From: Glaciihabitans sp.
Lineage (GTDB): Bacteria; Actinomycetota; Actinomycetes; Actinomycetales; Microbacteriaceae
Direction: 5' to 3'
Assembly (NCBI GenBank): GCA_025465535.1
Contig: JAODMY010000072.1
Span: 1-64,000, forward strand
DNA: 64,000 nucleotides
Position numbers and translations under genes: made by a program. This document shows, piece by piece, positions 47,817 through 55,024 of this stretch (the first letter of the stretch is position 1; each line of letters opens with the position of its first letter). The notes beneath the pieces were generated by a model. It did no database searches, was not told where the DNA came from, and saw nothing but the letters and a program-made list of their open reading frames with translations.

Positions 47817-48248
47817 GTGTTTCTTGGCACCTATGCGCCCAAGCTCGACGACAAAGGTCGCCTCATCCTTCCGGCCAAGTTCTGGGATGAGCTTGCTTCC
47901 GGTGTCGTAATCACCCGGGGGCAGGAGCACTGCCTCTACGTCTTCAGCACGCGCGAGTTCGAGAGCGTGCACGAAAAGATCCGCCAGGCCCCGGTCACGA
48001 GCAAGCAGGCGCGCGACTATCTCCGTTTGTTCCTCTCGGGTGCGAACCAGGAGCAGCCGGACAAGCAGCGCCGCGTGACTATTCCGGTCGGCCTGCGGGA
48101 GTACGCGGGCCTCGATCGTGACCTCACGGTGATCGGCGCGGGAAGCCGTGCCGAGATCTGGGACACCGCGGCGTGGAACCAGTACTACGCCGAGACCGAA
48201 GCCGGATTCGCCAACACGTCGGAGGAGGTGATTCCCGGGCTCTTCTAG
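47817..48248 (+). CDS. mraZ: transcriptional regulator MraZ
   Basis: [26 protein letters not shown] and second SpoVT/AbrB-like half [26 protein letters not shown] start. Confidence 0.96.
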
Positions 48249-48356
48249 CGCCCAGTCGCTGACTCCCAGCCGTTCAGCGCCCTGGCATCACTTCCCCGGT
48301 GACAGGTCGCAGGAATGGATGGGGATCTGTGATTGGGGGCTCAACGCCCCTACCTC

Positions 48357-49978: not shown

Positions 49979-51748
49979 ATGAAAAAGACCAGGAGTGCGG
50001 CCCTGCGGCTCACCCTCACAATGGTCGCGATCTTTGCCATCGTCGTCGTGTTCACCGGGCGACTCGTCGATCTCCAGGTCGTGCAGTCGGCTGACCTCAC
50101 AAAGAAGGCGGTCCAGTCGCGCGAGGCCAAGGTGATCACCTACGGCACACGCGGAGCGATCGTGGATACCAACGGTGATGTTCTGGCGGACAGCGTCGAC
50201 CGGTTCAACATCACCGTCTCGCCAAGGAACTTCCCCGAGAAGGGCTACGACGCCAAGTTCAACGATCCGACGACTCATGTCAGCGCGGACGAGGCCCTCG
50301 GCAAAATCGGCAAGCTGACCGGGCAGACCGTCGCAGAGCTGCAGGCGATCATCCGGAAGGATCCAAAGTCCGACTTCGCCTACCTCTCGAAGAGCGTCAC
50401 GCTGGCGGTGTTCACCGCTGTCGTGAAGCTGAAGATCCCGGGGATTTACTCGCAGCCGCAGCCGGCACGCAGCTACCCCAACGGCGCGGTCGCCGGGAAC
50501 CTGGTCGGCTTCATGGGAACGGATGGCGCTCAGGCGGGCATCGAGCTCATGGAGAACAGTTGCCTCTCGAGCAAGAACGGAACCTCGACCTACGAGAAGG
50601 CGGAGGACGGCACCCGTATCCCCGGAAGCACCGTAAAGCAGACCGCTCCCGTGGACGGCGGCACGGTCAAGCTCACGATCGACCGCGATCTCAACTGGTA
50701 CGTGCAGAATGCGATCGCTGCCCAGGCGAAGAAGATCGGTTCGCCGTGGGCGACCGGAATCGTGGAGCGGGTCTCCGACGGACACCTTCTCGCCGTGGCC
50801 GACTACCCGACGGTCGATCCGAACAACCTCAATGCGACGCCGCAGAGAGCGTTCGGGTCGCTTGCGTTCAGCACGCCGTACGAGCCCGGCTCAACCTTCA
50901 AGGCCATGAGCGCGGCTTCGCTGCTCGATGCGGGAGCGATCACCCCGACGACCCAGATCACCGTTCCGTCGGTTTACACGAACGGCCTGCCGCGCGGCAG
51001 CTACATCAAAGACTCGTTTTCGCACGGCACGCTTCACTACACGACGGCCGGGGTTCTCGAGAACTCATCCAACATCGGAATCTCGATCCTCTCGCAGTCG
51101 CTGAACAAACAGGCGCGACACGATTACATGGCGAAGTTCGGGGTCGGATCGAAGACCGCCGTGGGCTTCAACGGAGAATCGGCCGGTATTTTGCATCCCG
51201 CCAACCAGTGGGACTCCGTTACCAGCCGCACGGTCGAGTTCGGCCAGGGGGTCAGCGCGACCTCGGCCCAGGTCGCCCAGATTTTCGAGACGATCGCGAA
51301 TCACGGAGTTCGCGAACCTTCCACTCTCGTCGAGGGCTGCACCCACGCGAACGGCACTGTGACTGACCAGCCGACGGCCAAGCCCGTGCGCGTCGTGAGC
51401 CAAAAATCAGCCGACGAAACGGTCAAGATGCTTGAGACGGTTGTCACCGGCGGACCGATCGGTTCACTCCTGCAAATCCCCGGGTACCGCATTGCGGCGA
51501 AGACCGGAACCGCGCAGGTCGCGTCGACAAATGGCACCGGGTACACCAACAAGTACATCCTCTCCGTCGCCGGGATCGCGCCGGCCGAGGATCCGGAATA
51601 CGTCGTCCTCGTGACCTTCGGGCCTACTACGCTGGGGACGTCGGCAGGTGCCGCACCAGCATTCAAAAACGTCATGACCGAGGTACTCAAGAAGTACCGG
51701 GTCGAACCATCAACACAGCCAGCGCCCTACGTCAAGACGACGTGGTAA
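49979..51748 (+). CDS. ftsI: peptidoglycan transpeptidase FtsI/PBP (class B)
   Basis: RGAIVDTNGDVLADS, SxxK PGSTFKAMSAAS, KTG motif AAKTGTAQVA. Confidence 0.94.
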   Translation: MKKTRSAALRLTLTMVAIFAIVVVFTGRLVDLQVVQSADLTKKAVQSREAKVITYGTRGAIVDTNGDVLADSVDRFNITVSPRNFPEKGYDAKFNDPTTHVSADEALGKIGKLTGQTVAELQAIIRKDPKSDFAYLSKSVTLAVFTAVVKLKIPGIYSQPQPARSYPNGAVAGNLVGFMGTDGAQAGIELMENSCLSSKNGTSTYEKAEDGTRIPGSTVKQTAPVDGGTVKLTIDRDLNWYVQNAIAAQAKKIGSPWATGIVERVSDGHLLAVADYPTVDPNNLNATPQRAFGSLAFSTPYEPGSTFKAMSAASLLDAGAITPTTQITVPSVYTNGLPRGSYIKDSFSHGTLHYTTAGVLENSSNIGISILSQSLNKQARHDYMAKFGVGSKTAVGFNGESAGILHPANQWDSVTSRTVEFGQGVSATSAQVAQIFETIANHGVREPSTLVEGCTHANGTVTDQPTAKPVRVVSQKSADETVKMLETVVTGGPIGSLLQIPGYRIAAKTGTAQVASTNGTGYTNKYILSVAGIAPAEDPEYVVLVTFGPTTLGTSAGAAPAFKNVMTEVLKKYRVEPSTQPAPYVKTTW

Positions 51749-51777
51749 CGGGTGCGCTGCATCAGAAAGAGGACTGC

Positions 51778-53361
51778 GTGACCGATCGGATCCCCCCGGT
51801 CCTTCGCCCTGAGCATCCAGCCGATCGGACCCCTCCCGTCTTACGCCCGGAGCATCCGCAGGCTCGATCCCTGGCCGGCCTCGTCGCCGAATTCGGGCTT
51901 GAGGCTCGTGGTTCGCTTGACGGTGTCGAGATCACGGGTGTCACGCTGAGCACGGCGGATCTTCACCCGGGAGATCTCTACGTCGGCATCCAGGGCGCCA
52001 ACAGCCACGGAGCGAAGTACGCGGCCCAGGCTCGCGACGGCGGCGCGGTCGCCATCCTCACGGACGCAGTCGGCGCGGACCTCGCTGCGGATTCCGGCCT
52101 TCCCATCGTGTTGGTCGCATCCCCGCGCGAAGCGCTTGGCGAAATCTCCGGGTGGGTCTATCGCACCGCAGAGCGACCACCGCTGCTGTTCGGGACGACG
52201 GGCACGAACGGCAAGACGTCGGTCTCGTACCTGCTCGAAGGGATCCTGAAGCAGCTCGGCCTCGTTGCGGGGCTGAGCTCCACGTCGGAGCGCCACATCG
52301 GCGACCTCAGCATCGTTTCGCGGCTGACGACCCCCGAGGCGAGTGAGATGCACGCGTTGCTTGCGCGGATGCGCGAGAGCAACGTCCGTGCCGTTGCCGT
52401 CGAGGTCAGCGCGCAGGCTCTCACCCACAATCGCGTCGACGGACTCTTCTTCGACGTGGTCGCCTTCACCAACCTCAGCCACGACCACCTCGACGACTAC
52501 GCCGACCTCGAGGAGTACTTCCAGGCCAAGCTCGAGCTGTTCGATCCGGATCGTGCGAAGCGAGGTGTCGTCTCGCTCGACACCAGCTGGGGCCAGCGCG
52601 TGGTCGAGGAATCCCGCATTCCGGTGACGACCATCTCGGCGACTGCCGGCGTGGACGCACAGTGGACCGTCAAGATCCTCGACGAGCGTGCCGCGTACAC
52701 CGAGTTCTCGCTGACCGGCCCCGAGGGGAGATCGCTCACGACTCGCGTGCCCATCATCGGCTGGCACATGGCGGCCAATGCCGGACTCGCGATCGTCATG
52801 CTGGTCGAGGCCGGGTTCGAGCTCGAGGCGATCGGCCAGGCGCTCGAGGCGGACGGCGGAATTGTCGCCTACCTTCCCGGTCGCACGGAGCGCGTCTCCG
52901 GCGATCGAGGCCCTTCGGTCTATGTGGACTTCGGTCACAGCCCCGATGCTTTCCTCAACACCCTTGCCGCGGTCCGCAATCTCACCCCCGGTCGAACAAT
53001 CATGCTGTTCGGTGCCGATGGGGACAGGGATGCGTCCAAGCGGCACGAGATGGGACGGGTCGCGGCGGATGGGTCGGACATCCTCGTCATCACGGATCAC
53101 CACCCCCGCTTCGAGGATCCGGCATCGATTCGCAAGACTCTCCTCGAAGGCGCAGCCCTCGCGGAGCACCAGCCCGAAATTTACGAGGTGAGCCCCCCGG
53201 AGGCGGCGATCCGCAAGGCGGTCTCCCTCGCGAGGCCGGGGGATTCGATTCTCTGGGCCGGGCCTGGACACCAGGACTATCGCGACATCGAGGGCGTGAG
53301 GACGCCCTACTCGGCCAGGGAGGAAGCCCGCGCCGCGCTTCAAGAGGCGGGCTGGGAATGA
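51778..53361 (+). CDS. murE: UDP-N-acetylmuramyl-tripeptide synthetase MurE
   Basis: GTTGTNGKTSVSYLLEGIL P-loop, NLSHDHLDDYADLEEYF, DHHPRFEDP. GTG 51778 likely start. Confidence 0.93.
   Translation: MTDRIPPVLRPEHPADRTPPVLRPEHPQARSLAGLVAEFGLEARGSLDGVEITGVTLSTADLHPGDLYVGIQGANSHGAKYAAQARDGGAVAILTDAVGADLAADSGLPIVLVASPREALGEISGWVYRTAERPPLLFGTTGTNGKTSVSYLLEGILKQLGLVAGLSSTSERHIGDLSIVSRLTTPEASEMHALLARMRESNVRAVAVEVSAQALTHNRVDGLFFDVVAFTNLSHDHLDDYADLEEYFQAKLELFDPDRAKRGVVSLDTSWGQRVVEESRIPVTTISATAGVDAQWTVKILDERAAYTEFSLTGPEGRSLTTRVPIIGWHMAANAGLAIVMLVEAGFELEAIGQALEADGGIVAYLPGRTERVSGDRGPSVYVDFGHSPDAFLNTLAAVRNLTPGRTIMLFGADGDRDASKRHEMGRVAADGSDILVITDHHPRFEDPASIRKTLLEGAALAEHQPEIYEVSPPEAAIRKAVSLARPGDSILWAGPGHQDYRDIEGVRTPYSAREEARAALQEAGWE
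51784..51861 (+). repeat. 39-bp in-frame tandem duplication encoding DRIPPVLRPEHPA/DRTPPVLRPEHPQ
   Basis: Two 39-bp units (51784-51822 and 51823-51861) at the MurE N-terminus. Confidence 0.85.
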
Positions 53362-53891
53362 GCGGGATAACGCTCTCGCAGATCGTGGACCTCACGAGCG
53401 GCCGACTCGACGAGTCGGACTTTCCATCGAACCTGGATCTGAGCCACACCGAGCTGCTTCGGTCGCCATCCGGCGCCCTGATCATCGCGGATATCGGTGA
53501 TGCAATCGGTGACTCAAGCCCGGATTCGACCGCCGCAGCGCTCAAGATGCTCGTCCAGTTGAGCGGTGAATCTGGACGGTCGATTGCCCTACTCGGCGAG
53601 CTGGATGTTCCGGCTGCCGAGGCGAACGACGAGCACGACCGGATCGGTCGGCTTGTGGTTCGACTCAATGTGCAGAAGCTGATTGTGGTTGGTCATGCTG
53701 CCCGCCATATCCACAATGCCGCAGGCCTCGAAGGCTCCTGGGACGGCGAGTCCGAGTTAGTCGGGACGCCGGATGAGGCATACGATTTGCTGCGTGAAGA
53801 TTTGGGTCCAGAGGATATCGTGCTCGTAAAATCTTCGGTCCTCTCGGGATTCGGCGCACTCGCTCACCGACTTACCGGTGTTGCCAAGTGA
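53358..53891 (+). CDS. MurF-derived protein lacking the central ATP-binding domain
   Basis: [16 protein letters not shown] stub fused to a MurF C-terminal-like domain ([69 protein letters not shown]); 177 aa, no GTxGKT motif; between murE and mraY. Confidence 0.8.
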
Positions 53892-55024
53892 TTGCCCTTC
53901 TCGTCGGTGCGGCGGTCTCGCTGGCCTTCACACTCTTTCTGACGCCGAGCTTCGCCAAGCTTTTTCGACGTCTCGGCTGGGGCCAGTTCATCCGCGATGA
54001 CGGACCACAGAGCCACCACGCCAAGCGTGGGACGCCCACCATGGGCGGAATCGTCTTCATCCTCGGCTCGGGGCTCGGTTATCTTGTCGGCCATCTCGTG
54101 GCACGCGTTCCCCTCACCCTGGTTGGCCTCATGGTGTTTTTCCTGGTCGTCGGGCTCGGCGTCGTGGGATTCATCGACGACTTCCTAAAAACGCGGCGCC
54201 AGCGCAGCCTCGGCCTCACCGGATGGGCGAAGATTGCCGGCCAGGTGGTCGTGGCCTCGGGCTTCGCCGCAATCGCGCTCAATTTTCCCGACCAGGACGG
54301 ACTCACTCCGGTCGGATTCGCGGCCGACTCGAAGCACGGCGTTGAGGTATTCATCTCTGCCGTGCGTGACATTCCATGGCTCAATTTCATGACGTTCGGT
54401 GTCGTGATCGGTGCGATCCTGTTTGCGCTCTGGTCGACCATCATCATCGTCAGTGCGTCGAACGGCGTCAACGTCGCGGACGGCCTCGACGGCCTCGCGA
54501 CCGGTGCCACGATCTTCGCTCTCGCCGCCTACATCTTCATCGGCTTCTGGCAGTACAACCAGAACTGCTACAACAACCTCAGGCTCGATCCACACGTCCA
54601 GGACCTCTGCTACCAGGTGCGAGATCCACTCGACCTCGCGGTGACGGCAGCCTGTATCACCGGGGCACTCATCGGCTTCCTCTGGTGGAACACCTCTCCC
54701 GCACAGATCTTCATGGGCGACACCGGATCTCTCGCGCTCGGCGGCGCACTCGGCGGCCTTGCCATCCTGAGCCACACCGAGCTTCTTCTCGTCATCATCG
54801 GCGGACTGTTCCTCATCGTCACCGGGTCGGTGATCGTGCAGAGGGTGTACTTCAAGATCACGCACGGCAAGCGGATCTTCCTGATGAGTCCGTTGCATCA
54901 TCACTTCGAGCTGAAGGGCTGGGCAGAGATCACCGTCGTGGTTCGGTTCTGGCTCATCTCCGCCATGTTCGTTGCCGTCGGGGTTGGGCTGTTCTACCTA
55001 GAGTGGGTTTCGCGCGCATCGTGA
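53888..55024 (+). CDS. mraY: phospho-N-acetylmuramoyl-pentapeptide-transferase
   Basis: [51 protein letters not shown]. Confidence 0.97.

Follow-up and report, generated by a model that had tools for sequence, protein, structure and literature searches.

The dcw cluster of the window (the whole 64,000-nucleotide stretch of Glaciihabitans DNA that was analysed) runs mraZ-mraW-ftsL-pbp-murE-[short murF]-mraY-murD-ftsW-murG-murC-ftsQ-ftsZ, with gene names assigned from the translations. Between murE and mraY lies an open reading frame of just 177 codons that matches MurF at its two ends only. The features at this locus are as follows.

51742..53361, + strand: murE, upstream of the remnant, which it overlaps by 4 bases (ATGA)
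53358..53891, + strand: MurF remnant, 177 aa, catalytically dead, between murE and mraY
53358..53450, + strand: remnant of the MurF N-terminus, residues 1-31, from the alignment with the full MurF of G001, G004 and G005
53451..53888, + strand: MurF C-terminal (glutamate-ligase) domain, residues 32-177, from Pfam, motifs and the MurF alignment
53490..53531, + strand: site of the lost DAYNASPDSM motif
53730..53753, + strand: EGSWDGES, residues 125-132, a retained motif in which E, G, S, W, G, E and S are invariant
53888..55024, + strand: mraY, downstream of the remnant, which it overlaps by 4 bases (GTGA)

The shortened murF gene

The initial annotation described this ORF as a domain-deleted relic of MurF in an intact frame, and that description holds. 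The ATG of the remnant overlaps the murE stop and its own stop overlaps the GTG start of mraY. Pfam finds Mur_ligase_C alone (PF02875, 36.6 bits with a cut-off of 28.4) and neither a middle (Mur_ligase_M) nor an N-terminal Mur domain. The best NCBIfam match is the murF model TIGR01143, which aligns from position 306 to 413 of 418 and scores 44.6 bits (cut-off 288.6). When compared with full MurF proteins of the same genus, residues 1-31 correspond to the MurF N-terminus, and residues 32-177 align from 'MELL..PSGA' to the MurF end. Since the remnant aligns only at these two ends, an in-frame stretch of approximately 295 codons has been lost, which in MurF encodes domain 1 and the ATPase domain. 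In the AlphaFold2 model (mean pLDDT 92.4) the remnant folds into a compact domain, to which MurF structures are the nearest among solved folds. Judged from its sequence, the ORF is a MurF that has been reduced by in-frame deletion.

The remnant shares with canonical MurF (TIGR01143; PDB 1gg4, 4cvm and 3zl8) its position between murE and mraY, the fold and sequence of the C-terminal domain and the actinobacterial EGSWxGES loop. Unlike canonical MurF, it has no domain 1, no ATPase middle domain with its P-loop (GxxGKT) and carbamate lysine, and no DxYNAxP motif, as DAYNASPDSM has also gone from the C-terminal domain that remains. With domain 1, the ATPase domain and DAYNASP all gone, the remnant cannot be a ligase.

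The genome that holds the window (G000) is a draft of 152 contigs and is 90% complete, which could have allowed an assembly collapse of a normal murF, but the chance of this is negligible: of the six genomes of the genus that were compared (G000-G005), an independent second one (G003, contig JAODBD010000010.1) carries a murF shortened by the same deletion, at 63% identity to the window's remnant, and comparable remnants are found in single-contig genomes, e.g. G084 and G198. MurF is full-length in the remaining four (G001, G002, G004 and G005). Several of the genomes compared in this work are drafts. Because of the 90% completeness, the absence of a gene from G000 is weak evidence when taken alone; the same pattern is seen in the single-contig genomes.

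Elsewhere in the cluster, an mraW leader RNA (RF01746, window positions 48244-48348, 54.4 bits) lies upstream of mraW. There was no other Rfam match in the window.

TM-MurF and its cassette

The initial annotation suggested a search of the genome for MurF and Ddl, and proposed that a full MurF may exist elsewhere while the dcw copy has become non-catalytic. A profile search of G000 found no canonical MurF above the cut-off. Besides the dcw remnant, G000 encodes a single MurF-type protein, a ligase with several hydrophobic segments, here called TM-MurF, at positions 38265-39821 of contig C16. Other weak MurF matches proved to be MurC, MurD, MurE, FolC-like and MurT-like proteins. The proposal was partly right: there is a MurF-type ligase elsewhere and the protein retained in the dcw cluster is non-catalytic, but the ligase is not a canonical full-length MurF. 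It is membrane-anchored, lacks domain 1 and was acquired with its own Ddl.

TM-MurF has the domains Mur_ligase_M and Mur_ligase_C. It covers positions 65-402 only of TIGR01143, and its score of 185.7 bits falls below the curated cut-off of 288.6. In its structural model (pLDDT 92.2) an N-terminal bundle of six helices stands where the UDP-binding domain 1 would be expected, and the closest solved structures are those of MurF. The motifs of a ligase are all present, namely the P-loop, the carbamate lysine, the acidic and histidine metal ligands and DxYNxNP. The P-loop GKT, E239, H269, K283 and D402/N406/N408/P409 are invariant in 38 relatives, as are residues of the helix bundle, e.g. P93, G100, T108 and R110. 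From these motifs, the neighbouring Ddl and the exclusivity with canonical MurF that is described below, we infer that TM-MurF adds the D-Ala-D-Ala dipeptide.

If a MurF is embedded in the membrane and has no UDP-binding domain, which form of its substrate does it use? By analogy with MurT, we speculate that TM-MurF may act on a lipid-linked precursor; such a lipid stage is hinted at by just two features, the lack of domain 1 and the conservation of the membrane bundle. MurT of the MurT/GatD pair (PF08245 and DUF1727) likewise has a Mur-ligase ATPase core without the UDP-MurNAc-binding domain 1, and it amidates lipid I/II, not UDP precursors (PMC6085368). A membrane helix bundle and a C-terminal domain of MurF type, with the dipeptide motif, set TM-MurF apart from MurT.

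TM-MurF is the middle gene of a three-gene cassette (approximately 37044-40537 of contig C16; L009:7045-10538), between an alpha/beta hydrolase and a Ddl-type ligase that we call Ddl'. Genomes without TM-MurF have the order gpsA-ddl-DUF3515-thiL, whereas those with it have gpsA-[hydrolase-TM-MurF-Ddl']-DUF3515-thiL, i.e. the cassette took the place of ddl, with gpsA on one side and DUF3515 on the other. The comparison genomes contain a canonical Ddl that scores above the curated cut-off, and the cassette genomes have none, save for extra copies in G003 and G115. There was no close match to Ddl' (E <= 1e-30) in seven comparison genomes that lack the cassette. The same three genes are found together in distant members of the phylum, at roughly 38-48% identity. 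The hydrolase accompanies both ligases even there. The extra Ddl of G003 (C14:20533-21594, L130) scores highly and is found apart from the cassette site, next to another gpsA-like gene.

Ddl' has the domains PF01820 and PF07478 of an ATP-grasp ligase and scores below the TIGR01205 cut-off. Its LYSYAEKYL stretch aligns with the Ddl of M. tuberculosis and Thermus, and the tyrosine of the (E/T)KY loop is kept. On these residues Ddl' looks D-Ala-D-Ala specific. This bears on the other proposal of the initial annotation, that the precursor ends differently in this organism, in D-Ala-D-Lac or another dipeptide, and that the D-Ala-D-Ala branch was swapped for this reason. Ddl and MurF were indeed swapped jointly, as a cassette, and murF copies accompany van/glycopeptide clusters in some Actinobacteria (PMC8698665), where, as here, a second MurF lies beside a Ddl-type ligase. 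However, the cassette differs from those clusters in that no vanH- or vanX-like gene was seen in it and in the architecture of TM-MurF, the KY tyrosine of Ddl' is that of D-Ala-D-Ala ligases, and the active-site motifs of MurF are intact in TM-MurF. A different precursor end is therefore very improbable, and one in D-Lac is unsupported by the residues of Ddl'.

Distribution and repeated reduction

We scored 300 Microbacteriaceae genomes for canonical MurF (at the cut-off) and for TM-MurF. Canonical MurF was found in 267 and TM-MurF in 28, and only a single genome, G115, has both. The two enzymes are thus mutually exclusive with one exception (Fisher p ~1e-31, a value that ignores shared ancestry). 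Lineage is controlled for by the genera g1 and g84, as each of these contains both states. The canonical MurF of G115 is catalytically complete, is encoded in a separate murF-alr-ddl cluster (L124:4745-8708) and comes in addition to a dcw remnant.

Neither enzyme was scored in six genomes, and for four of them there is a full or partial explanation. The full MurF of G109 is split into two matches, the MurF of G175 is cut by a contig end, G085 is 78% complete, and G048 has a remnant and Ddl', with its TM-MurF probably in a contig gap. A TM-MurF-like match in G002 was set aside and is not among the 28: it has 34% identity, and its 7-kb contig, from an 84%-complete genome with a full dcw MurF, is probably contamination from another organism. 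On that contig (C20, L128) the distant TM-MurF stands beside a Ddl, which hints that the pair is widespread.

All 27 TM-MurF genomes in which the murE-mraY interval is readable (seven genera) carry one MurF remnant there, open, in frame and 143-337 aa long; G258, where contig ends cut the dcw locus, was left out of this count. With G048 there are 28 remnants from eight genera. Their lengths and break points vary by genus. For example, the remnants of g67 consist of little beyond the C-terminal domain, whereas in g80 and g38 eroded parts of the central domain are still present. In g89, which belongs to another family of the same order (G380 and G563; L122 and L123), the cassette is present, murF is fully lost and murE abuts mraY. 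The remnant is therefore not universally needed.

How often has this happened? In the MraY tree G000 and G003 fall inside g1 among species with a full MurF, and G150 falls inside g84, again with full-MurF species. In the TM-MurF tree, G000, G003 and G150 group with g38 instead (100/98). Because the two trees disagree in g1 and g84, they point to horizontal transfer of the cassette and separate reductions of murF, although MraY is not a fully independent witness as mraY adjoins murF. As the simplest account, the trees indicate at least three separate reductions, in g1, in g84 and in the rest.

Selection on the remnant and its possible role

We estimated dN/dS with simple pairwise Nei-Gojobori calculations. 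For the remnant, two close pairs give 0.20 and 0.19, and G000 against G003, where dS is high, gives 0.18. In most pairs dN/dS is lower near EGSW than towards the N-terminus; in g38 the 80 codons around EGSW give 0.22-0.46, against 0.74-0.94 for a nearly unconstrained N-terminal part. That said, remnants evolve faster than mraY. Conservation is focused on one motif. Of the 70 C-domain columns that are invariant in nine full MurF proteins, 13 are also invariant in all 28 remnants, and seven of these are the E, G, S, W, G, E and S of EGSWxGES (the rest are G80, G97, R102, G112, A115 and A141, in G000 numbering). DAYNASP is kept in none of the 28, and over the catalytic AYNASPDS stretch most columns drop to 21-43%. 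Sequence comparison finds no EGSWxGES in TM-MurF or in the off-cluster MurF of G115. As TM-MurF lacks EGSWxGES and the remnants lack DAYNASP, catalysis and the EGSW patch now lie on separate proteins. A DNA or RNA cis element was rejected as the object of selection: synonymous sites diverge freely and the only Rfam match is the leader upstream of mraW. By these comparisons of sequences, the remnants are under purifying selection.

Our preferred explanation, which we regard as probable though far from certain, is that an imported cassette took over ligation and that the remnant was kept as a non-catalytic subunit with a putative binding partner. Having replaced ddl, the cassette would have taken over the D-Ala-D-Ala branch in the synthesis of peptidoglycan precursors, with TM-MurF adding the dipeptide, as its intact active-site motifs suggest. 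The dcw murF, freed from catalysis, would then have lost its substrate-binding and ATPase domains independently in several lineages, while purifying selection retained the C-terminal domain around EGSWxGES, the patch that TM-MurF lacks. Most probably the remnant serves for docking or regulation, as a subunit that would bind one of the proteins with which normal MurF associates and would thereby keep the precursor machinery assembled or regulated. The literature offers MraY, MurG, MreB, FtsW/FtsQ/FtsZ, Wag31 and PknA/B as candidate partners: MurF binds MraY, MurG and MreB in other bacteria (PMC4929429), and mycobacterial Mur ligases interact with FtsZ, FtsW, FtsQ, Wag31, SepF and PknA/B (PMC3605390). 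In Bordetella, a MurG scaffold for a MurE-MurF fusion has been described (PMC6420597). This, like our model for the remnant, has MurF in a complex of precursor enzymes, but the Bordetella MurF is catalytic whereas the remnant is the C-terminal domain alone.

A bolder version of this explanation, which we put forward as a tentative and rather doubtful hypothesis, is that actinobacterial MurF is bifunctional. In addition to ligation it would have a needed non-catalytic role, through the EGSWxGES patch of its C-terminal domain, in the assembly or regulation of the MraY/MurG/divisome complex. The dcw MurF would have been stripped to this role repeatedly after the import of TM-MurF, which may itself act after MraY on a lipid-linked precursor.

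Could the remnant instead be a subunit of TM-MurF, supplying a C-domain surface without which that enzyme works poorly? The strict co-occurrence of the two within the family and the lack of an EGSW motif in TM-MurF would fit, but TM-MurF has its own C-terminal domain with the catalytic motif, and g89 has TM-MurF without a remnant. EGSWxGES is also present in the full MurF of genomes without TM-MurF, so the partner of the motif predates the cassette. We consider a TM-MurF subunit unlikely.

It is similarly improbable that the remnant is a functionless, slowly decaying pseudogene, a redundant murF that is eroding from its 5′ side. The variable lengths and break points, the relaxed N-terminal parts in g38 and the complete loss of the gene in g89 are what such decay might produce. 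However, every one of the 28 remnants is an open, in-frame sequence, neutral evolution would predict approximately 17 nonsense hits between G000 and G003 where none is observed, dN/dS is ~0.2 in close pairs and the seven motif residues are invariant over eight genera. The refutation named in the initial annotation, a short form confined to one assembly with decaying relatives, was checked and fails. Still less plausible is an ORF that is kept merely for translational coupling of murE and mraY, with an irrelevant protein sequence. The overlaps with both neighbours are kept at the window locus, yet coupling would not conserve specific residues such as those of EGSWxGES, synonymous sites diverge freely, and the direct junction of murE and mraY in g89 implies that no intervening ORF is needed.

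MurF is regarded as a single-purpose essential ligase and as an antibiotic target. The survival of a protected, non-catalytic MurF domain suggests a second job for MurF. These genomes amount to a natural separation-of-function experiment with several runs, in which a different locus took over catalysis and selection kept mostly a single patch of the C-terminal domain. EGSWxGES is thus a specific surface with which to probe the long-debated physical complex of Mur ligases. The remnant resembles pseudoenzymes in general in its conserved fold, its lost catalytic residues and its purifying selection. Unlike them, it has been cut to one domain, repeatedly, after displacement by a horizontally acquired analogue. 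Our literature search, which covered open-access papers only and is weak evidence of novelty, found no report of a truncated or pseudo-MurF or of such a cassette.

Some smaller observations can be added. In G115, the dcw remnant keeps the EGSWxGES that the off-cluster MurF of the same genome lacks. The N-terminus of the window's MurE (window positions 51780-51865) contains a tandem repeat of PPVLRPEHP in two copies, and G003 has one copy.
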